From Porphyromonadaceae bacterium (lineage in GTDB: Bacteria > Bacteroidota > Bacteroidia > Bacteroidales > Paludibacteraceae), in the NCBI GenBank assembly GCA_905372605.1, contig CAJPPQ010000011.1, positions 1-17,275 of the forward strand: a stretch of DNA of 17,275 nt, written 5' to 3'. Shown piece by piece: positions 353 through 11,102 of this stretch (its first letter is position 1; each line of letters opens with the position of its first letter). The position numbers were made by a program, and so were the translations under genes. The notes below the pieces were generated by a model. The model did no database searches. It was not told the origin of the DNA and saw only the letters and a list, made by a program, of their open reading frames with translations.

Positions 353-553
353 TTAGTCTTTGTCTTCGAGGCTAAAAAGCTCGTTGACAGTAATATTGAA
401 TATCTGCGACATTTTAAGTGCTAGAACCGTCGAGGGGTTGTATTTGCCGAGCTCTATAGCATTGATAGTCTGCCGACTGACACCTGTCATATCTGCCAGT
501 TGCCCTTGAGTGATGTTTTTACGGGCACGCTCTACCTTTATACTGTTAGTCAT
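353..553 (-). CDS. Small Xre/Cro-type helix-turn-helix transcriptional regulator
   Basis: A 66-residue protein if translation begins at the ATG at 553-551 (MTNSIKVERARKN); an upstream in-frame ATG at 577 would add eight unlikely residues. It is almost entirely one HTH_3/Cro-C1 domain: RKNITQGQLADMTGV at about 11-25, the recognition helix SRQTINAIELGKYNPS at about 26-41, and the terminal NITVNELFSL typical of the short YgzD-like family. It has no ligand or dimerisation domain. The start overlaps the stop of the upstream membrane-protein gene (ATGACTAA), so the two are almost certainly co-transcribed and translationally coupled. Proteins of this size usually repress their own operon by binding DNA as dimers. 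An inverted repeat over the operon promoter (1054-1090) is a possible operator, which is inference. Confidence 0.85.
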   Translation of the reverse strand: MTNSIKVERARKNITQGQLADMTGVSRQTINAIELGKYNPSTVLALKMSQIFNITVNELFSLEDKD

Positions 554-1019
554 ACTCGCCGTTATTTTTGGAAACACAGTGCAACAACCAATAAAACCGA
601 AGTATAAAGATTATCGGGATAGTAAACATATTGCCCACGAGTACCCAGAAGAAAGGGAAATCGTATACAAAAACGATCGCAAACAACAGTATCGCACAAT
701 TCGTCAAAACTGCCCACGACAGTGCATTTAGCCGTAGGGAAGCGATAAACTCATCTTCGTTTTTCTCTTTGGAAAACATAATGAATACGCCACCGACTAT
801 TGTCATTATGGCAGCGATTTCGTCGAGAACACTATTCTCTACGATTCCACAAAAACCGGTACCTAAAATACCGACATTATAAAAGAGAGCAAAAACTTTA
901 GTTTGTAATATGTCTGTGTTTTGCAGACACATACACAAAATACATAATAAAAAACCGATGGCGAAAACAGCCCATCCAAGAGGTTTAAACCTGTTTGACA
1001 ATAAAAAACTCTGTTTCAT
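546..1019 (-). CDS. Integral membrane protein coupled to the Xre regulator
   Basis: A 157-residue protein with four to five hydrophobic segments at roughly 13-32, 43-60, 66-83, 97-118 and 121-145, so it sits in the inner membrane. The loop at 84-95 (SKEKNEDEF) is charged. No catalytic motif is seen and the biochemical role is unknown. The stop TAA at 548-546 lies inside the first codons of the downstream Xre gene. Pairs of a small multi-pass membrane protein and a roughly 66-residue HTH repressor recur in Bacteroidota and Firmicutes, which suggests a two-gene unit in which the membrane protein may influence or be controlled by the regulator. The start at 1019 is supported by a TTTG-N20-TACTTTTG promoter ending 29 nt upstream. 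Confidence 0.75.
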   Translation of the reverse strand: MKQSFLLSNRFKPLGWAVFAIGFLLCILCMCLQNTDILQTKVFALFYNVGILGTGFCGIVENSVLDEIAAIMTIVGGVFIMFSKEKNEDEFIASLRLNALSWAVLTNCAILLFAIVFVYDFPFFWVLVGNMFTIPIIFILRFYWLLHCVSKNNGEYD

Positions 1020-2583: not shown

Positions 2584-3147
2584 ATGCTTTCGGTCGATAC
2601 GGTAAGATTAGATGGTATCATAGAGGGTTGTAAAGAAGGTAAAGAAGATAGTCAAAGACGCCTTTATGAACTTTATGCAAAGCGAATGACAGCAGTGTGT
2701 CTGCGATATACCGACGATTACGAGACTGCACGCGACCTGATGCACGACGGATTTATAAAGGTATTCGGTCATATAGGAGATTACAGTGGTACAGGGAGTT
2801 TCGAGGGATGGCTTAGGAGGATTTTTGTGAATATTTCGCTCGATCACATAAGGAAGAGAGTCGAAAATATAGATATAGATAAAGTAGAATATTTGCTCGA
2901 CCAAAGCGACGACGATTGGGAAATATATAGCGATATAAGTATCGACGATATATTCGAGGCTATAAAACAGCTGCCCGAAGTGGCAAGAACTATATTCAAT
3001 ATGTTCAATCTCGATGGATATTCTATAAAAGAGATTTGTAACGAGTTGAATATGACTAGTGAAGCGGTAAGGTCGCAACACTGCAGAGCTAAAGAAAAGC
3101 TCCGCAAGATTTTGAAAACTAAAGAACAAAGATTATATAACAAGTAG
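2584..3147 (+). CDS. ECF-type RNA polymerase sigma factor
   Basis: A 187-residue sigma-70 family protein with only regions 2 and 4. Region 2 spans about 23-92, including the helix with ARDLMHDGFIKVF (49-61) and the region 2.4-like GSFEGWLRRIFVNISLDHIRKR (71-92). An acidic linker (93-120, DQSDDDWE) follows. Region 4 spans about 121-176, with the helix-turn-helix GYSIKEICNELNMTSEAVRSQ (145-165). It should direct core RNA polymerase to a small regulon. The next gene, 38 nt downstream, encodes a protein with an anti-sigma-like cytoplasmic tail, a membrane helix and an outer-membrane barrel, which is the likely regulator of this sigma. No TAnnTTTG promoter was found in the 58 nt after lpxB, so it may be co-transcribed with lpxB or use its own ECF-type promoter. 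Confidence 0.92.
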   Translation: MLSVDTVRLDGIIEGCKEGKEDSQRRLYELYAKRMTAVCLRYTDDYETARDLMHDGFIKVFGHIGDYSGTGSFEGWLRRIFVNISLDHIRKRVENIDIDKVEYLLDQSDDDWEIYSDISIDDIFEAIKQLPEVARTIFNMFNLDGYSIKEICNELNMTSEAVRSQHCRAKEKLRKILKTKEQRLYNK

Positions 3148-3185
3148 AACGATAGGCGATTACTATCAAGTAAATATTATTTCTA

Positions 3186-4505
3186 ATGAAAAAAATATTC
3201 GACGATAATATAGCAAACCAACTCAATCAATTGGAAGTAGACCTTCCGCAAAACGATTGGGACGTACTATTGGCAAAGATACCAACCAAGAAACGCCGTG
3301 CTATACCTATATGGTATTATGTATCAGCGGCTTCTGTTGTCCTATTGCTTGGATTCGGTTCGTTGTTTATGCTTTATAACGATAGCTCAAAAGGCAATAG
3401 TCAACAATTTACTGCCCAAGTGGTATCCGACAGTAAAACAGATGTTTACAGTGAGGAAAATGAGCAAGCGTCTGTCAACTATAATAATTCACCTATTGCC
3501 GTAAATGAAATTTATGAGCGCAATAGTAAAGTATACGATACACCAAGAGCTTCAGAAACAAATAGTAGGGCTATCTCTTCCGGTAAAAAAAGAAATACAA
3601 ACTCTTTTCTCGATGGTACCCGAAGCAATAGCAATCTAAGCATAGATATACAAGAATTACCATCGGAAGCTAATATTCAAGATACTAATACAGATAGTCG
3701 TAAGGCAGACTCTACTCCTAAAAAACATAAAACAATACAACAACACGATACCGATAAGTCGCTCGATGAATATAGGCAAGAATATCGACAGCAGACAATA
3801 CCCAAAGACAATATACGCAAGCAGCGGCAGCAACTCAAAGACCGCAACTCTCTTACAAGAGACTACTATGCAGATATACATACTTCGGTATCGCCTTTAT
3901 CGGGCAATAGTGGTATCCGTACAAGTAACAACGACCTTGTGTCTACAAATGGAATAATGTCTATAACAAGTCCGTACGATGTACAGACCCGACACAATAT
4001 CCCCGTATCGATAGGAATGAGTATTGGTATTCCCGTAATACGGAATAGGCTGTATTTCAGTACGGGACTGAGGTACACATATTTGTATTCTGTGTCGACT
4101 ACTATAGATAGAGAGACAAGTAAAGCGATATCGGCAGATGAGCAGAATCTGCATTATATCGGCATTCCGCTTGGATTATCTTATCAGTTTGTAGAAAAAG
4201 GTATTTTCAGAGCCTATCTGTCCGCCTCTGCTACTTTGGAAAAAGGTATATCGAAAGTTACAAGACATGTTAATTATGTGACATCGAGCTACGAAAGTAA
4301 CTTTACTGAGAGTATCGACGGATTTGCTACCTCTTTTGCTGTTGGTGGAGGTGTAGGAGTGAAGATAGTACGTAGTCTTGAATTTTACTTGGACCCCGAA
4401 TTCTCGTGGTTTATTTTTAGTAAAAAATACCCGCAGCCTGAGAGTAGAATTACTCAAAATCCTATTAATATTGGTGTTACGGGAGGTCTCAGATGGAATT
4501 TTTAA
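3186..4505 (+). CDS. Putative dual-membrane-spanning anti-sigma factor with C-terminal outer-membrane barrel
   Basis: A 439-residue protein with four parts. Residues 1-39 are a short, presumably cytoplasmic, tail with NDWDVLLAKI and a basic KKRR just before the membrane. Residues 41-64 form one transmembrane helix. Residues about 66-265 are a low-complexity, hydrophilic linker rich in Ser, Asn, Thr, Asp, Gln and Arg/Lys. Residues about 270-439 show alternating beta-strands (IGMSIGIPV, LYFSTGLRYTYLYS, FAVGGGVGVKI, LEFYLDPEFSWF) and end in WNF, the aromatic C-terminus typical of outer-membrane barrels. No cleavable signal peptide is evident, so the protein would be anchored in the inner membrane and inserted in the outer membrane at once. 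This matches the Dma-type proteins reported for Bacteroides, partners of an ECF sigma. Gene order (sigma first, 38-nt gap) supports the pairing. Anti-sigma activity is inferred. Confidence 0.72.
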   Translation: MKKIFDDNIANQLNQLEVDLPQNDWDVLLAKIPTKKRRAIPIWYYVSAASVVLLLGFGSLFMLYNDSSKGNSQQFTAQVVSDSKTDVYSEENEQASVNYNNSPIAVNEIYERNSKVYDTPRASETNSRAISSGKKRNTNSFLDGTRSNSNLSIDIQELPSEANIQDTNTDSRKADSTPKKHKTIQQHDTDKSLDEYRQEYRQQTIPKDNIRKQRQQLKDRNSLTRDYYADIHTSVSPLSGNSGIRTSNNDLVSTNGIMSITSPYDVQTRHNIPVSIGMSIGIPVIRNRLYFSTGLRYTYLYSVSTTIDRETSKAISADEQNLHYIGIPLGLSYQFVEKGIFRAYLSASATLEKGISKVTRHVNYVTSSYESNFTESIDGFATSFAVGGGVGVKIVRSLEFYLDPEFSWFIFSKKYPQPESRITQNPINIGVTGGLRWNF

Positions 4506-4540
4506 TTGATATGAAATAACAATATTCAATTGAAATAGTA

Positions 4541-4548
4541 TAATTTTG
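4541..4548 (+). promoter_or_regulatory. Predicted -7 element for the lipoprotein gene
   Basis: TAATTTTG matches TAnnTTTG and ends 29 nt before the lipoprotein ATG. No -33 element was found at normal spacing. A perfect 10-bp palindrome, TTCAATTGAA, lies at 4525-4534 immediately upstream, where a regulator could bind. Confidence 0.4.
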
Positions 4549-4577
4549 TAAGTTTAATTTTTAAATCAGTTTTTTAT

Positions 4578-5660
4578 ATGAAGAGAGTATTTAATTTTAG
4601 TCTGCTATTGGTAGCAGTGTTAGTGATTGGTTTTGCTTCTTGTAAAAACAACAGGTCCGAACCTCCCCAACCAAATCCCGATACTACGAAGGAAGAAAAT
4701 GTTAAGTACGAATTTCTCTATGCGGGATTTTTAGAGTATCGAAATATGCATGGTCAACAAATGTCAATGTACGAAATTTCTTTTGTAGAAGAGGGTGTAT
4801 TGAAAGGAAAAAGTATATTGAAAAAGGGTAAGGCTATCAGTGTAATATTAGCTGTAAAAGAAGCTACGACAAATGTAGGATTCAGACCGGCAAATAACAC
4901 TTATACGAAAGAAAATGGTCTCATGTTAAATCATGGAAACCGAATATTTTCAGACGTGTATGATGTAGAATTAGACGGTAAAATGAAGGAAAAGGGAATC
5001 GGATTCAAAGACGATGCTCAACTGATAGTAGGCGATGGCGGTAAAGTAACTTTCAAAGCTACAGATACCAAAGGCATAAAGTACACAATATCTGTAGATA
5101 ATGCTACTTATACAAATATCGGAAAATTTAAGAACGAAGACTTCTCGCTTGTACCTCAGGATAAGTACGCAAATCTAAGTGTTAGTGGTAATAAGAAATT
5201 AGAGTCTGAGATTATAGAAGATAAAGTAAAGGCAATGTATCTTGTTACTAAAGAGGAAACTATCTCTGGCGATAAGCTTATGGCACACTTTGTATTATAT
5301 ACCAAGAAAGATGCTTCTGTCGTAGAAGAAGGTAATTATACTGTAGGTAGAAGTCTAACGGCGAATACCTTCCTTACCTCTAACGGTATTACGAATAAAG
5401 AAACAAAATTAGGTATCATGGTCGACGGTTCTTGCTTATTCAATACAAAGAAAGAAGGAACTAAGGAATATTTTAATAAGATACTTCATATTGCAAGTGG
5501 AAATGTTACTGTTACTGCCTCTAATCCACCTACTAAGACAGAGGGAGACATCTCATTTATAGGGAAATCTTATTTTGGTCATAATATAAAATTTGTGTAT
5601 ACAGGTAGCTTGAAGCCCTCAGCCGCTTCACCTGCTCCTATGAGAGTATTAAGCAAATAA
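4578..5660 (+). CDS. Lipoprotein with a duplicated beta-rich domain, function unknown
   Basis: A 360-residue protein with a lipoprotein signal peptide: a hydrophobic stretch at 7-19 and the lipobox FASC with the lipidated Cys at 22. A Pro/Asn/Lys-rich tether follows (23-40). I do not recognise the family. Two regions look like copies of one beta-rich module, about 40-180 and 215-345. Both carry an N(N/-)TYT or GNYTVG strand, a VELDG or MVDGS strand, a GGKVTF or SGNVTV strand, and an end of the form IKYTISVDN or IKFVYTGSL. The tether has no strong acidic surface-export signal, so periplasmic or surface location is open. It follows the sigma/anti-sigma pair by 72 nt and could be a regulon member or a sensor partner, although it has its own -7-like element. 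Confidence 0.75.
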   Translation: MKRVFNFSLLLVAVLVIGFASCKNNRSEPPQPNPDTTKEENVKYEFLYAGFLEYRNMHGQQMSMYEISFVEEGVLKGKSILKKGKAISVILAVKEATTNVGFRPANNTYTKENGLMLNHGNRIFSDVYDVELDGKMKEKGIGFKDDAQLIVGDGGKVTFKATDTKGIKYTISVDNATYTNIGKFKNEDFSLVPQDKYANLSVSGNKKLESEIIEDKVKAMYLVTKEETISGDKLMAHFVLYTKKDASVVEEGNYTVGRSLTANTFLTSNGITNKETKLGIMVDGSCLFNTKKEGTKEYFNKILHIASGNVTVTASNPPTKTEGDISFIGKSYFGHNIKFVYTGSLKPSAASPAPMRVLSK

Positions 5661-5724: not shown

Positions 5725-5747
5725 ACAAACAAAAAGTTATATCTTTG
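5716..5747 (+). promoter_or_regulatory. Promoter of pdxA-panD
   Basis: TATCTTTG at 5740-5747, followed by CAC, matches TAnnTTTG. A TTTC at 5716-5719 lies 20 nt upstream as a near-consensus -33. The pdxA ATG is 42 nt after the -7 element. Confidence 0.5.
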
Positions 5748-5789: not shown

Positions 5790-6851
5790 ATGAATAAAAG
5801 ACTTAAAATAGGTATCACACACGGAGATATCAATGGTATCAGTTACGAAATCATTATAAAAACTCTCAGCGAACCTCAGCTATTGGAGATGTGTACTCCT
5901 ATTGTCTACGGGTCGCCAAAGGTGTTTGCTTTCTACAAAAAAATGTTCGATATCGGCAATACACATGTTGTCCCTATCGACTCTCCTGCAGCTGCTCATC
6001 AGGGCAAGGCTTATATAATAAACTGTTGTGGAGAGGATATAAAGATAGAGACGGGCAAGCAGTCGCTCGAAGCCGGAGCATTGGCTCTCGATGCTCTCAA
6101 TGCCGCCTCCAACGACTTGGCAGCAGGTAGTATCGATGCTCTTGTAACTGCCCCTATCAATAAGAGTACCATACAGTCCGATAAATTCCATTTCCCCGGA
6201 CACACCGAATATCTCGAAAAGATAGCAGGAGAGCATTCTATAATGATGCTTACTTCCGACAACGTCAGAGTAGCTCTGGCTACCAACCATACGCCTATAA
6301 AAAAGGTAAGCAGCGAGCTATCGAAAGAGTTGATAGTAAGTAAGTTAAAAATGTTGCATCGTTCGCTTATACAAGATTTTTGTATCACTTGTCCCCGAAT
6401 AGCTGTCTTGGCACTCAACCCACACTCTTCGGACAACGGACTCATAGGAGACGAAGAGGAACGTATTATCGTACCTGCTATATCAGAGGCAAACAGTGCC
6501 GGCATTGTCTGCACCGGACCGTTGTCTGCCGATGGATTCTGGGGAGCAGGCTCTTACACTAAGTATGATGCAATACTTGCCATGTACCACGATCAAGGGT
6601 TGGCTACATTCAAAGCTCTATTTCAAGATAGTGGGGTAAACTTCACCGCAGGGCTACGTTTTGTACGTACCTCCCCTGCTCACGGAACCGCATACGACCT
6701 TGCTGGTAAAAATATGGCAAGCCACCAATCAATGCTCAATGCGATATATTTGGCTATAGACATAGTAAACAACCGCAACATATACAGCCAGATATCCTCT
6801 AATCCTCTTAGAGTAGAGCAACACGGTGAAAGAAACGAAGTCTCGGAATAA
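5790..6851 (+). CDS. pdxA: 4-hydroxythreonine-4-phosphate dehydrogenase
   Basis: PdxA is a cytoplasmic NAD(P)-dependent, divalent-metal enzyme. It oxidises 4-phosphohydroxy-L-threonine, giving 3-amino-1-hydroxyacetone phosphate for pyridoxal phosphate synthesis by the DXP-dependent route. The 353 residues are close to normal. The three metal-binding histidines are visible: H138 in PGHTEY, H212 in NPHSSDNG and H267 in YHDQG. TAPINK (120-125), GPLSADGFW (243-251) and [11 protein letters not shown] (293-303) are also family motifs. The N-terminal GDINGISYE (12-20) is the Bacteroidota variant of the usual GDPAGIGPE. A 37-nt gap separates it from panD on the same strand, so a two-gene vitamin operon is likely. 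Confidence 0.96.
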
Positions 6852-6888
6852 TATCATCTATCACTTTATAAAAAAAAAACAAAAGTAT

Positions 6889-7236
6889 ATGCAAATCAAT
6901 GTATTGAAGTCTAAGATACACAGAGCCACCGTAACGGAAGCCAACCTTAACTACATCGGGAGTATCACTATCGATGAGGCTCTAATGGAAGCCTCGGGTA
7001 TATATGAATATGAGAAAGTAGCTGTAGTCGATGTTACCAATGGTGCTAGGCTCGAGACTTACGCCATATGTGGCGAACGCTATTCGGGAGTAATCTGCCT
7101 CAACGGTGCAGCCGCTCACCTTATGCACAAAGGCGATATCGTGATTATAATGGCCTACACATGGATAGAACACTCTGAGACAGCAGGCTTTACTCCTAAA
7201 GTCATTTTCCCTCAGGAAGTTACGAATAAAATATAG
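6889..7236 (+). CDS. panD: Aspartate 1-decarboxylase (pyruvoyl enzyme)
   Basis: PanD decarboxylates L-aspartate to beta-alanine for pantothenate and coenzyme A. The proenzyme cleaves itself between Gly24 and Ser25 to create the pyruvoyl cofactor. Starting at the ATG at 6889 ([13 protein letters not shown]) gives 115 residues and places G24-S25 in YIGSITID exactly as in characterised PanD, along with K9, R54, T57, Y58 and N72. An in-frame ATG at 6826 lies inside pdxA and would add an unconserved 21 residues, so it is rejected. The gene follows pdxA by 37 nt with no intervening promoter match. No panB or panC is in the window. Confidence 0.96.
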
Positions 7237-7272
7237 CTTGTCTAACAAAATTAAGAATATAAATCATCTCGA

Positions 7273-7302
7273 TTGAGAAGTAGAAAATAATTTTTATCTT
7301 TG
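7273..7302 (+). promoter_or_regulatory. recA promoter
   Basis: TTG (7273-7275) and TATCTTTG (7295-7302) are separated by 19 nt, and the -7 is followed by CAC. The recA ATG is 28 nt downstream. I saw no obvious LexA-type dyad in the 94-nt interval, so SOS control is not supported by this sequence. Confidence 0.65.
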
Positions 7303-7330
7303 CACTTGACAATTTTAAAAAACTAATAGT

Positions 7331-8356
7331 ATGAGTACTCAAAATAATAACGCAACACCACCCGCCGAAAAACTAAAAGCCTTGCAGTTGGCGATGGATA
7401 AGATAGAAAAAGACCACGGCAAAGGTACTATAATGAAACTTGGCGACAACAACATCGAGCACGTAAGCGTCATACCTACAGGCTCTATCGGTCTCAATGC
7501 CGCTTTAGGCGTGGGAGGCTATCCGCGTGGAAGAATCATCGAAATATACGGACCCGAATCGAGCGGTAAGACTACACTTGCCATACATGCTATAGCCGAA
7601 GCACAGAAGGCAGGAGGCATAGCAGCGATAATCGACGCCGAACATGCGTTCGATAGGTTCTATGCTCAAAGTCTTGGCGTCGACGTCGACAACCTGCTTA
7701 TCTCTCAGCCCGATTCGGGAGAGCAGGCTCTCGAAATAGCAGACCAACTGATTCGCTCTTCGGCACTGGATATCCTTGTGGTAGACTCTGTTGCGGCTCT
7801 TACTCCCAAAGCCGAACTCGAAGGCGATATGGGTGAAAATAAAGTGGGGTTGCAAGCCCGACTGATGTCGCAAGCTCTGCGTAAACTTACAGCATCGATA
7901 TCTCGCACAAACACTACATGCATATTTATCAATCAGTTACGAGAAAAAATAGGAGTTATGTTTGGATCGCCCGAGACCACTACCGGCGGAAATGCTCTAA
8001 AGTTCTACTCCTCGGTACGCTTGGATATTCGCCGTATAGGACCTATCAAAGACGGTGAGAATCAGATTGGTAATGAGACACGAGTAAAGGTGGTAAAGAA
8101 TAAAGTTTCTCCTCCGTTCCGCAAGGCAGAGTTTGATATAATGTTCGGTCACGGTATATCGCGTAGTGGAGAAATCATAGATTTGGGCGTCGACTTCGAC
8201 ATTATCAAAAAGAGCGGTTCGTGGTTTTCGTACGGCGATAGTAAGTTGGCACAGGGTCGCGATGCCTCTAAAAAGATAATCGAAGACAATCCCGAACTCG
8301 CTAAAGAGATCGAAGACAAGATAATGGAAAAACTAAAGGACAATATTATCAGATAA
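7331..8356 (+). CDS. recA: RecA recombinase
   Basis: RecA polymerises on single-stranded DNA, pairs homologous duplexes with ATP hydrolysis, and stimulates LexA-type self-cleavage where such repressors exist. The 341 residues are normal and uninterrupted, with no intein. Walker A is GPESSGKT (74-81), Walker B is the [12 protein letters not shown] strand, and the DNA-binding loop regions include [21 protein letters not shown] and [19 protein letters not shown]. The [10 protein letters not shown] stretch belongs to the core. The C-terminus is acidic/basic ([17 protein letters not shown]), as is typical. It is transcribed alone, from its own promoter, ahead of greA on the same strand. Confidence 0.98.
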
Positions 8357-8505: not shown

Positions 8506-8532
8506 ACTGACAAAATAAAATTATTACAAGAT

Positions 8533-9003
8533 ATGGCAATAGTTTATATGACAGAAGAGGGCTATAAAAAATTAGCCGATGAGATAGTACAACTGGAGGC
8601 AGTCGACCGCAAAGCTATTTCGGCACAGATAGCTGAGGCTCGCGATAAAGGCGACTTGTCTGAGAATGCTGAGTACGACGCAGCAAAAGAGGCTCAGGGA
8701 ATGCTCGAAATGAAAATATCTCAGATGAAAGAGACTCTGGCAAACGCACGAATAATCGACGAGAGTAAGCTGAAAACAGATAAAGTACAAATACTCAATA
8801 CTATAAAAGTGAAGAATTTAAATAATAATCAGGAAATGAGTTATACGCTTGTATCTGAAAACGAAGCAAATATCCGTCAGGGTAAACTTGCTATAAATAC
8901 TCCTATCGGTCAGGGACTTTTGGGCAAAAAAGTAGGCGAAGTAGCCGAGATAGTAGTTCCTGCCGGTGTGTTACGTTTGGAGGTAATAGATATTTCCCTG
9001 TAG
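8533..9003 (+). CDS. greA: Transcription elongation factor GreA
   Basis: GreA enters the RNA polymerase secondary channel and stimulates transcript cleavage in backtracked complexes. The ATG at 8533 gives MAIVYMTEEGYKKL and 156 residues, the family length; an in-frame TTG at 8443 would add 30 unconserved residues across the leader hairpin. Residues 1-75 form the antiparallel coiled coil, with the acidic tip residues D41 and E44 in GDLSENAEYDAAKE. Residues about 80-156 form the FKBP-like C-terminal domain with GQGLLGKKVGEVAEI. The HIT gene follows after 26 nt. A long leader with a terminator-like hairpin suggests leader-level control. Confidence 0.96.
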   Translation: MAIVYMTEEGYKKLADEIVQLEAVDRKAISAQIAEARDKGDLSENAEYDAAKEAQGMLEMKISQMKETLANARIIDESKLKTDKVQILNTIKVKNLNNNQEMSYTLVSENEANIRQGKLAINTPIGQGLLGKKVGEVAEIVVPAGVLRLEVIDISL

Positions 9004-9029
9004 TTTAATCAATAATATCACATATAGAT

Positions 9030-9428
9030 ATGACTGTATTTTCGAAAATCGTAGCAGGTGAGATTCCCTGCTACAAGGTAGCCGAAGACGAAAATTTTCT
9101 GGCATTTCTCGATATAAATCCTCTTGTAGAGGGGCATACTCTCGTGATCCCCAAGAAAGAGGTAGACTATATCTTTGATTTGGACTCAGATACATATAGC
9201 GGGCTCATGGCATTTGCTCGTAAGGTAGCGAAAGCTATAAAATCGACAATAGATTGTAAAAGGGTAGGAGTAGCAGTTTTGGGGATGGAGGTACCGCATG
9301 CACATATTCATCTGGTTCCACTCCGAAAAGAGTCGGATTTGAACTTTTCTAATCCCAAAATAGAACTCACAAACGACAATATGAACAAGATTGCCAATAA
9401 AATTTCGAGTAAAGTAGTTGATTTCTAA
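9030..9428 (+). CDS. HIT family nucleotide-binding hydrolase
   Basis: A 132-residue histidine-triad protein. It begins with the classic TVFSKIVAGEIPCYKVAED, has the FLDINPLVEGHTLVIPKKEVD segment (27-46) and carries the catalytic triad HAHIHLVP (H90, H92, H94). Members (Hint/YcfF-like) hydrolyse phosphoramidate or adenylated compounds such as AMP-lysine or AMP-NH2 in the cytosol; the substrate cannot be told from sequence. It lies 26 nt after greA and is almost certainly in the same transcript, a neighbour relation common in Bacteroidota. No promoter or hairpin lies between them. Confidence 0.93.
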   Translation: MTVFSKIVAGEIPCYKVAEDENFLAFLDINPLVEGHTLVIPKKEVDYIFDLDSDTYSGLMAFARKVAKAIKSTIDCKRVGVAVLGMEVPHAHIHLVPLRKESDLNFSNPKIELTNDNMNKIANKISSKVVDF

Positions 9429-9454
9429 AGAAGAAATTTTTTTTCGAAAAAGTA

Positions 9455-9484
9455 TTGCGGATTAGAAAAAATGTAGTACTTTTG
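9455..9484 (+). promoter_or_regulatory. tRNA-Asn promoter
   Basis: TTG (9455-9457) and TACTTTTG (9477-9484) are separated by 19 nt, and the -7 is followed by CAC. The mature tRNA begins 68 nt downstream. Confidence 0.6.
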
Positions 9485-9552
9485 CACGTAATTCAGATGA
9501 GAAGTTTTTTGTTTCATAATCAAAAGGTTTTTAAAGGTTAATAATTAATGAT

Positions 9553-9626
9553 TCTTCCTTAGCTCAGTTGGTTAGAGCATCTGACTGTTAATCAGAGGGT
9601 CCTTGGTTCAAGTCCAAGAGGGAGAG
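9553..9626 (+). tRNA. tRNA-Asn (anticodon GTT)
   Basis: A full cloverleaf can be drawn by eye. The acceptor stem TCTTCCT pairs with AGGGAGA (one G-U pair), followed by the discriminator G73 expected for Asn. The D-arm starts GCTC. The anticodon stem TCTGA/TCAGA holds the loop CTGTTAA with anticodon GTT at 9587-9589. The T-stem CTTGG/CCAAG holds the loop TTCAAGT. The CCA end is not encoded. Confidence 0.96.
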
Positions 9627-9664
9627 CAAAAAGAGCGACATCAAATCGCTCTTTTTGTTTTTTA
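9627..9664. terminator. Bidirectional terminator between tRNA-Asn and murD
   Basis: CAAAAAGAGCGA (9627-9638) and TCGCTCTTTTTG (9646-9657) form a perfect 12-bp stem with a 7-nt loop, then a further T run. It starts right after the tRNA discriminator base and lies 22 nt past the convergent murD stop. The A-rich 5' arm gives a U tract for minus-strand transcripts too. Confidence 0.85.
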
Positions 9665-9686
9665 TGGATATCGGAGTACGTCGTTA

Positions 9687-11102
9687 CTACGATTTTTTCA
9701 TCTCCAATACAGCTTGTTTAAACTGGTCGCCTCTATCTTCGTAATTGTTGAAGAGGTCGAAGCTTGCACAGCAAGGCGAAAGTAGCACCGTATCACCTGC
9801 CTGTGCCGCATTGGAAGCCAAGCAGATAGCCTCTTTCATCGACCGAGCTTCGTGATACGGAATTTTTTCACCGCCGACCGTACGGTAGTGCTCGAAAAAC
9901 TTTATTAGCTTGCTATTATCTACTCCGAGAAAAACGAGCGAACGCACTTTCTGTCGGACAAGTTCGTCTATTTCAGCATAATCGTTTCCCTTATCGGTGC
10001 CGCCAAGTATGAGTATGGTAGGAGTCTTCATACTTTGCAGAGCATACCAACAAGAATTGACGTTAGTCGCCTTAGAATCATTGATATAGCGTACTCCGTC
10101 GACGGTAGCGACATACTCCATACGGTGTTCGACCCCTTCGAATGTCGCTAAGGCTCTACAAAGATTAGCACCCTCTACACCAACCAATTGAGCGGCAATA
10201 GCTGCTGCCATAGAGTTGTAAATATTGTGTGTACCTTTGATAGCAAGACTCTCGATAGGTATATCGACAAAATGGCTGTGGCTCGGCGTCTGTATCACAA
10301 TATTATCTTTATCGTCTACAAAAGCGAAATTCTTTACGCCCGATGTTGTAGTCCGATTCAGGTCGAAAGTCAACATTATAGAGACAATATTACGCTTCGA
10401 TATCTCCGCTGCAACAATCGGGTCGCTTGCCCAGAAAATAAAGTAGTTAGACTCTGTTTGGTTCTGTAATATTCTGAATTTGGAGTCGATATAATTCTGA
10501 AACTTATATTCGTATCGGTCTAAGTGGTCGGGAGTAATATTGGTAATGATAGCAATATCGGCTCTAAAGTCGTACATATCATCGAGCTGGAAGCTGCTTA
10601 TTTCCAATACATAATAGTCGAAATCAGCCTCCGCTATCTGCAAAGCGAAACTTTTCCCGATATTGCCGGCAAGTCCAACGTTCAGTCCTGCGCTTTTCAG
10701 TATATGATAAATGAGCGTCGTAGTGGTGGTTTTGCCATTAGAGCCTGTTATACAGATAGTTTTCGCATTCGTATATCGAGAGGCAAACTCTATCTCGGAT
10801 ATAACTTTGATATTTTTAGCACGTATAGCCTTTATTATAGGAGACTTTTCGGGTATTCCCGGACTTTTTACCACCTCTATAGAGTGCTCTGTGTCTGACG
10901 TTCGGTCTATTATATCATATACTTTGTCGTGAGCTTTTTCTTCAAAACAGATACCTTTGTTTATCAATATGTTGCGGTATTGGTCTTTTATGCTTCCAAA
11001 GTCGGATACCAATACATTGAATCCTTTCTTTTGGGCTAATATTGCCGACCCGATGCCACTTTCGCCCGCTCCGAGCACTATTATCATTTTCTTGCTGTCC
11101 AT
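9687..11102 (-). CDS. murD: UDP-N-acetylmuramoyl-L-alanine--D-glutamate ligase
   Basis: MurD adds D-glutamate to UDP-MurNAc-L-Ala in the cytoplasmic phase of peptidoglycan synthesis, using ATP. The 471 residues fit the family. The N-terminal Rossmann-like domain starts IIVLGAGESGIGSA (7-20). The Mur-ligase ATP loop is GSNGKTTTT (120-128). NITPDHLDRY, GTHNIYNSMAA and FEGVEHRMEY are Mur-ligase signatures, and YINDSKATN plus ILGGTDKGND are the MurD-type C-terminal motifs. Unlike the usual arrangement, it is not inside a division and cell-wall cluster: a tRNA lies on one side and a divergent rhomboid gene on the other. Confidence 0.96.
   Translation of the reverse strand: MDSKKMIIVLGAGESGIGSAILAQKKGFNVLVSDFGSIKDQYRNILINKGICFEEKAHDKVYDIIDRTSDTEHSIEVVKSPGIPEKSPIIKAIRAKNIKVISEIEFASRYTNAKTICITGSNGKTTTTTLIYHILKSAGLNVGLAGNIGKSFALQIAEADFDYYVLEISSFQLDDMYDFRADIAIITNITPDHLDRYEYKFQNYIDSKFRILQNQTESNYFIFWASDPIVAAEISKRNIVSIMLTFDLNRTTTSGVKNFAFVDDKDNIVIQTPSHSHFVDIPIESLAIKGTHNIYNSMAAAIAAQLVGVEGANLCRALATFEGVEHRMEYVATVDGVRYINDSKATNVNSCWYALQSMKTPTILILGGTDKGNDYAEIDELVRQKVRSLVFLGVDNSKLIKFFEHYRTVGGEKIPYHEARSMKEAICLASNAAQAGDTVLLSPCCASFDLFNNYEDRGDQFKQAVLEMKKS

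Follow-up and report, generated by a model that had tools for sequence, protein, structure and literature searches.

A candidate dual-membrane anti-sigma factor and its sigma factor behind lpxB in a Porphyromonadaceae bacterium, with a predicted envelope regulon in relatives

The locus studied here, positions 2584-5660 of a 17,275-nt stretch of DNA from a Porphyromonadaceae bacterium (contig CAJPPQ010000011.1, forward strand; the whole stretch is termed the window), encodes an extracytoplasmic function (ECF) sigma factor, a 439-residue membrane protein, and a lipoprotein, downstream of lpxB. The first two are almost certainly a sigma/anti-sigma pair of the Dma type. This kind of system is already known; the anti-sigma design is described under the name Dma (PMC13088901) and as EcfO-Reo (PMC9308784, PMC13114119). 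The ties to lpxB and lpxD described below would supply a named signal and a named target for a Dma/Reo pair. The explanation that best accounts for the whole, and that we consider well on the probable side, combines a Dma/Reo pair, an envelope regulon, and lipid A genes within that regulon in the branch of the clade in which the pair lies behind lpxB. The gene order, the protein architecture, the promoter motif, and the targets of the motif in relatives are results of computation. The lpxB-linked gene order, the TGCAAC motif, its targets in relatives, and its occurrence before lpxD appear to be new.

The sigma factor and its membrane partner

In the window, lpxB (1389-2525; lipid-A-disaccharide synthase, PF02684 E 2.6e-76, TIGR00215 above cut-off) is followed by the gene of the 187-residue ECF sigma factor (2584-3147; Sigma70_r2 E 5e-14, Sigma70_r4_2 E 2e-13, TIGR02937). 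After a gap of 38 nt comes the gene of the 439-residue protein, the candidate dual-membrane anti-sigma factor of Dma/Reo type (3186-4505; identified by an AlphaFold2 model, a fold match, and a profile of its tail and transmembrane (TM) helix), and then that of a 360-residue lipoprotein (4578-5660; lipobox FASC with Cys22, by eye). All four genes lie on the + strand. A reading of the sequence alone had proposed this series, and the open reading frames (ORFs), Pfam, and the structure model confirm it.

The AlphaFold2 model of the 439-residue protein (mean predicted local distance difference test score (pLDDT) 64.2, pTM 0.48) divides into four parts, all encoded on the + strand. Residues 1-39 (3186-3302) are the predicted cytoplasmic sigma-binding tail, with an invariant Trp25 and with helices 4-15 and 24-31 at pLDDT 51-59. 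Residues 41-64 (3306-3377) form the predicted inner-membrane helix; the best TM window by hydropathy starts at residue 45, and the helix spans residues 42-68 in the model. A cytoplasmic N-terminus is favoured because KKRR at residues 35-38 precedes the helix, and the 40 residues ahead of the helix, together with conservation, suggest that the helix is not cleaved. Residues 65-224 (3378-3857) make up the predicted periplasmic tether, which is disordered across residues 66-187 (pLDDT <50) and continues with helices 193-202 and 207-224. Residues 225-439 (3858-4502) form the predicted outer-membrane barrel, in which eight strands are counted and which ends in GLRWNF.

The strands of the barrel span residues 228-438, and the model aligns with barrels of the PDB across residues 222-439, consistent with an OmpA-like barrel. 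The sequence-only reading and the model agree on a barrel, but the reading set the start at residue 270, about 45 residues later than the start near residue 225 seen here. Its linker of about 200 residues does contain a disordered stretch, but the disordered part is about 120 residues long and the spacer to the first strand about 160 in all, including the two helices. The window's protein scores below the cut-offs of barrel families (PF13568 24.3 bits, cut-off 27), and homologues in four relatives score above them. Measured between the end of the TM helix and a conserved barrel proline, the linker is 159-216 residues long (mean 199, standard deviation 14; 39 sequences, several of them near copies), and its mean pairwise identity is 13% (31 sequences) versus 36% for the barrel. 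Of the traits that define the Dma type, a C-terminal barrel, a single TM helix after a short N-terminal domain, a long disordered tether, and an adjacent ECF sigma factor are predicted or present in the window, so that the Dma-type assignment made from the sequence alone agrees with the published architecture.

The 439-residue protein has 27 homologues at E<=0.001 among 5.8 billion proteins (24 of them at least 76% identical, two 38-39%, and one 27%), and a genome scan with the anti-sigma alignment found no close relatives. A genome scan with the sigma alignment yielded 586 loci, of which the best 80, chosen by sigma similarity, were analysed. The gene after sigma matches the tail and TM profile in 76 of these 80 (E up to 0.02); therefore, the architecture is not a matter of chance. 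The barrel profile matches the same gene in 34 loci (E<1e-5), which by labels judged by eye comprise 29 from Bacteroidales groups, 3 assigned only to Bacteroidia, 1 Carboxylicivirga, and 1 Flavobacteriales. The 46 loci lacking a barrel match are mostly from Flavobacteria, Sphingobacteria, Chitinophagales, and Saprospiria, and also include L072 (Bacteroidales) and L021 (a Tannerellaceae metagenome-assembled genome), in which the anti-sigma gene (8515-9833) is split over two frames, by pseudogene formation or sequencing error. A set of membrane anti-sigma partners found across the phylum seems to share the tail and helix, and the barrel would be the form that the outer module takes mainly in Bacteroidales.

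Among 120 genomes of the window's family (sigma threshold E<=1e-34; genomes and loci are cited by G and L numbers), the sigma factor is present in 38 and lpxB in 113. lpxB lies directly upstream of the sigma gene on the same strand in 17 of the 38, read by hand (G201, G221, G172, where lpxB is cut by the contig end, G182, G198, G209, G170, G164, G194, G169, G001, G245, G230, G185, G256, G212, and G266), and the anti-sigma gene follows sigma in all 17. The nearest relative of the window is G201, in the family of G001 (LpxB 70% and sigma 69-71% identical). In the sigma tree, lpxB linkage requires 4 changes for 18 rows, and a single clade of 20 rows (including G238 and G252) is not rejected for the lpxB-linked sigma factors (approximately unbiased test, p-AU 0.343). 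The 1.5-kb flanks of 34 lpxB loci contain a sigma gene in L081 (G001) and L090 (G110); that of L090, from the wider sample of the order, is a more distant ECF sigma factor (32%) about 960 nt downstream of lpxB.

A second, paralogous sigma/anti-sigma pair occurs at L223, L227, L229, L230, L232, L233, L235, and L236 (genomes G154, G186, G224, G241, G254, G213, G176, and G204, respectively). By eye, it lies behind a gene of about 700 residues with the C-terminus WLDK(W/Y)LK and, at several of these loci, precedes lipoproteins with a serpin-like end.

Promoter motif, lpxD, and predicted targets in relatives

A two-block motif, TGCAAC(A/G)TTT-N12/13-C(A/G)TCT, lies directly upstream of the sigma genes in relatives. 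The motif set comprises 35 sequences (the window, L020, and 33 family regions), taken on both strands. At set spacing, the strict form (TGCA(A/G)C(A/G)TTT with C(A/G)TC(T/C)) has 18 occurrences in this set: 17 lie just upstream of where the sigma gene is annotated to start, and one is within a start that is misplaced. A relaxed form derived from the same sigma promoters, TGCA(A/G)C-N15-18-(C/T/G)(A/G)TC, is found within 200 nt upstream of 25 of the 35 sigma genes versus 4 of 242 other genes; when 60 nt into the frame are allowed, 14 of 17 sigma genes linked to lpxB have it, as do 14 of 17 without that link and the sigma gene of the window. Of a wider set of loci, 45 of 79 carry the relaxed motif; therefore, the motif belongs to the sigma clade at large. 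Among the gene-mapped regions, it precedes lpxB only in L216 and L217.

In the window, the candidate autoregulatory promoter (TGCAACATTT...GGTCC; 2534-2559, +) is located 50 nt before the sigma start. The motif TGCAACATTTTGTAGAACGTTGGTCC at this position is the one match, with 0.01 expected by shuffles, to a pattern that was widened to admit the window's form. A motif for EcfO of B. fragilis has been published (Ndamukong 2013, as cited in PMC7366714). We regard autoregulation of sigma from the TGCAAC promoter as very likely.

Across 19 family genomes, TGCAACRTTTN{12,13}CRTCT has 45 sites, whereas its reversed control has 3. When one mismatch is allowed and the spacing fixed, the counts are 23 versus 3 (4 genomes) and 25 versus 6 (10 genomes). 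Thirteen of the 45 sites are located before sigma genes of the clade, 12 belonging to the main type and 1, in G221, being a paralog. Downstream of each of the remaining 32, at a distance of 33-183 nt, a frame of 60 or more codons begins; the 32 include the sites of L298 and L299, which seem to lie inside a Wzi-like frame, and those of L284 and L288, where the starts are doubtful. Of the 32 first genes, a simple rule assigns a lipobox to 22, two of these being doubtful, and another 5 encode a hydrophobic N-terminus. Twenty first genes were scanned for families: NigD_C is above the cut-off in four (L273, L281, L285, and L287) and below it in L272, and among the others are LpxD twice (L280 and L296), a serpin (L286, PF00079, genome G185), and a Wzi-like protein (L298, with its seemingly intragenic site). 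The predicted regulon is supported by the presence of NigD genes in the published EcfO regulon of P. vulgatus (PMC13114119). By eye, the NigD-like target is followed by a lipoprotein resembling an FKBP-type isomerase in L285, L292, L295, L287, and L289, and in the first three a flotillin-like gene lies behind the latter.

The relaxed motif is also found before lpxD. A search for LpxD in 30 family genomes found it in 29, with no hit in G209. Of 16 lpxB-linked genomes, 12 carry the motif in the 200 nt upstream of lpxD, and shuffles of the 16 regions give a mean of 0.12 and a maximum of 2 in 1000. It also precedes lpxD in G238 and G252, in which the sigma factor groups with that of the window in the tree and does not adjoin lpxB on the contig. 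Among ten genomes counted as paralog-only (the partial G228 being set aside), it precedes lpxD in one, G246, where the site overlaps a housekeeping-type TTTGCA; the lpxB flanks of four of the ten (G257, G254, G241, and G231) contain no sigma gene. In a hand-picked sample of other genomes of the order, it precedes lpxD in 1 of 30. In G182, the site heads lpxD (Pfam-confirmed), followed by lpxC/fabZ-like and lpxA-like genes (by eye); in G221, the gene behind lpxD is something other than lpxC/fabZ or lpxA. To judge from these sites, lipid A genes are likely to belong to the regulon of the clade. By analogy with the relatives, they may belong to that of the window's organism, to which we give somewhat less than an even chance.

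Several observations weigh against the overall explanation of pair, regulon, and lipid A genes. The lpxB-linked order, looked for across Bacteroidales, recurs in the family but in only 1 of 149 genomes across the order (G001) among the matches listed. The window's motif departs from its kin, ending in GGTCC with a spacer one base shorter than in the nearest kin. Four of the 19 scanned genomes (G172, G198, G170, and G001) have zero strict sites, and 10 of the 20 scanned targets belong to no Pfam family. Kinship among the lpxB-linked genomes means that 12 of 16 represents fewer than 12 independent events, and G221 and G182 are the cases in which the lpxD sites were discovered; without both, the count is 10 of 14. 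Finally, the motif is absent before lpxD in G198, G170, G172, and the nearest relative, G201. The last point also qualifies the suggestion of the sequence-only reading that lpxB points to lipid A: the conserved lpxB-sigma-dma order and the lpxD motif in most lpxB-linked relatives lend it independent support, but G201 lacks the motif.

The strongest rival is a general envelope-stress pair resembling EcfO-Reo, for which the place beside lpxB is a frozen accident and lipid A genes are no special targets. The lack of the lpxD motif in G201 and the export signals of most non-sigma targets are consistent with it, as is the response of known relatives to toxins and probably to outer-membrane stress (PMC9308784, PMC13114119). 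The contrast between 12 of 16 lpxB-linked and 1 of 10 paralog-only genomes (Fisher's test p 0.004, kinship ignored) argues against it, and we judge this rival unlikely.

Proposed mechanism and the lipoprotein gene

For the Dma/Reo pair with an envelope regulon, we infer the binding of sigma by residues 1-39, the signal, the release route, and the likeness of the window's organism to its relatives. The tail of 40 residues would hold the ECF sigma factor at the inner membrane, one helix would cross that membrane, the disordered tether of conserved length would span the periplasm, and the OmpA-like barrel would sit in the outer membrane. As long as the barrel is properly placed, sigma would be held. 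Upon failure of outer-membrane or lipopolysaccharide (LPS) assembly, the anti-sigma factor would be lost or cleaved and sigma freed. The freed sigma would then transcribe its own operon from the TGCAAC promoter, together with a small envelope set of lipoproteins (some NigD-like) and outer-membrane proteins; in the lpxB-linked branch, the set would usually include lpxD, and hence lipid A synthesis.

Release by proteolysis after failed barrel assembly is favoured, at about even confidence, because a barrel that fails to assemble is in itself a defective outer-membrane protein and because of the disorder of the linker; some other route is less probable. Still less probable is direct tension, in which the linker relays the state of the barrel directly to the tail without proteolysis, serving as a gauge of tension or reach. 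The conservation of linker length but not of linker sequence would suit such a tether. However, a disordered stretch of about 120 residues is a poor conductor of shape change. A disordered chain extends by about 0.36 nm per residue. The linker could thus reach far past the periplasm and would not be taut unless the gap became much wider. That the barrel protein is a mere neighbour of sigma, a barrel with an N-terminal signal anchor and no regulatory role, is highly improbable: at 40 residues, its tail falls short of the usual length of class I anti-sigma domains, but the tail and TM profile matches after sigma in 76 of the 80 loci even where the C-terminal part has no barrel match. In addition, the published relatives work as anti-sigma factors (PMC13088901, PMC9308784).

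Tentatively, the Dma/Reo pair of the lpxB-linked branch may act as a lipid A homeostat: the barrel would monitor the assembly of LPS or of the outer membrane, and sigma, once freed, would increase expression of lpxD and of the lipid A genes downstream of it. We hold this to be possible rather than probable. If true, a single two-membrane polypeptide would close a transcriptional feedback from the state of the outer membrane to lipid A synthesis. Such a loop in Bacteroidota would fill a gap left by a 2025 review of lipid A regulation (PMC12444477), in the accessible main text of which the string 'bacteroid' occurs nowhere. In the accessible literature searched, no description of transcriptional lipid A control of this kind in Bacteroidota was found, and no link of a Dma/Reo pair to lpxB or lpxD was found in print, subscription papers lying outside the search. 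The motif itself provides a means of predicting, throughout the family, which genes such pairs control.

A lipoprotein gene is next downstream of the pair in the window, L020, L203, L204, L206, L208, L209, and L212 (by rule) and in L207 (by eye). In L205, L210, and L213-L218 the next gene does not encode a lipoprotein, and L211 ends before the downstream gene. The window's lipoprotein has no Pfam match at E<=1 and only 3 homologues in the homologue search. In a profile comparison it matches 8 lipoproteins from 7 loci (hhalign, with probability 99.0 and E 3.2e-18, the signal peptide being part of the match), namely two of L020, the second one of L209, and those of L204, L206, L208, L212, and L219, in the last of which sigma does not lie behind lpxB. 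In a fold search with its model (mean pLDDT 58), the best PDB match (E 0.0095, TM-score <0.2) was taken as no match. At L203 (G201), the lipoprotein behind the anti-sigma gene (6655-7566, in a frame that runs off the contig end) is a MACPF protein (PF01823 E 2.6e-10) unrelated to that of the window. The sequence-only reading had offered ligand, sensor partner, or target as its role; an obligate sensor partner is unlikely, because G201 has the unrelated MACPF lipoprotein at this place and L213-L218 have none next in line. No TGCAAC motif precedes the lipoprotein gene in the window; the only element there is a -7-like TAnnTTTG of the housekeeping type (4541-4548, +; consensus quoted in PMC7366714), from which the gene may have a promoter of its own.

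Further downstream, pdxA begins at 5790, preceded by its own housekeeping-type -7 element TATCTTTG at 5740-5747. The listed GTG start of the ORF at 6826-7236 overlaps pdxA; its body is PanD-like (by eye), and translation probably starts instead at the inner ATG at 6889. Upstream of lpxB, 546-1019 (-) encodes a membrane protein of 157 residues with no Pfam match at E<=1.

Comparison with known systems

In the sigmaE-RseA system of E. coli, sigma is released on envelope stress, and the lpxD region belongs to the sigmaE regulon. Unlike the window's candidate, RseA has no barrel, and the outer-membrane signal arrives via free ends of outer-membrane proteins and via proteases. In FecI-FecR-FecA, an outer-membrane protein likewise controls an ECF sigma factor, with the sensor barrel and the anti-sigma factor being separate and the barrel TonB-dependent. 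The window's pair departs from the FecR type with its separate TonB-dependent outer-membrane transducer, in that the tail and a small barrel form one protein.

The comparison with Dma and Reo is by published description. Dma2-Das2 of B. thetaiotaomicron (BT_1558/BT_1559; PMC13088901) resembles the window in having a sigma factor together with a polypeptide of tail, TM helix, disordered tether, and C-terminal barrel, and in an operon with one or more further genes of no assigned function. In the dma2 mutant, induction is among the strongest for the sigma gene and the genes next to it (PMC13088901), a pattern that agrees with the autoregulatory motif predicted for the window. Dma2-Das2 differs in its read-outs, which are vesicles and polysaccharide utilization loci, and the accessible text of PMC13088901 describes no lpxB neighbour. 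Dma3 of the same species, which its authors place in the same family (PMC13088901), carries a sigma-like domain at the N-terminus of the same protein, whereas the two are separate genes in the window.

EcfO-Reo of Phocaeicola vulgatus and Bacteroides fragilis (PMC9308784, PMC13114119) has the same architecture as the window's pair, with outer-membrane stress as the likely cue. The Reo-type anti-sigma factor restrains its sigma factor, toxins activate the pair, probably via envelope stress, and loss of the anti-sigma factor lengthens the O-antigen and induces NigD (PMC9308784, PMC13114119). NigD lipoproteins are part of its regulon, and NigD-like genes are among the targets predicted in the window's relatives. 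The effect of EcfO-Reo on LPS concerns the length of the O-antigen, whereas in the window's relatives the predicted targets include the lipid A gene lpxD and the pair lies behind lpxB.

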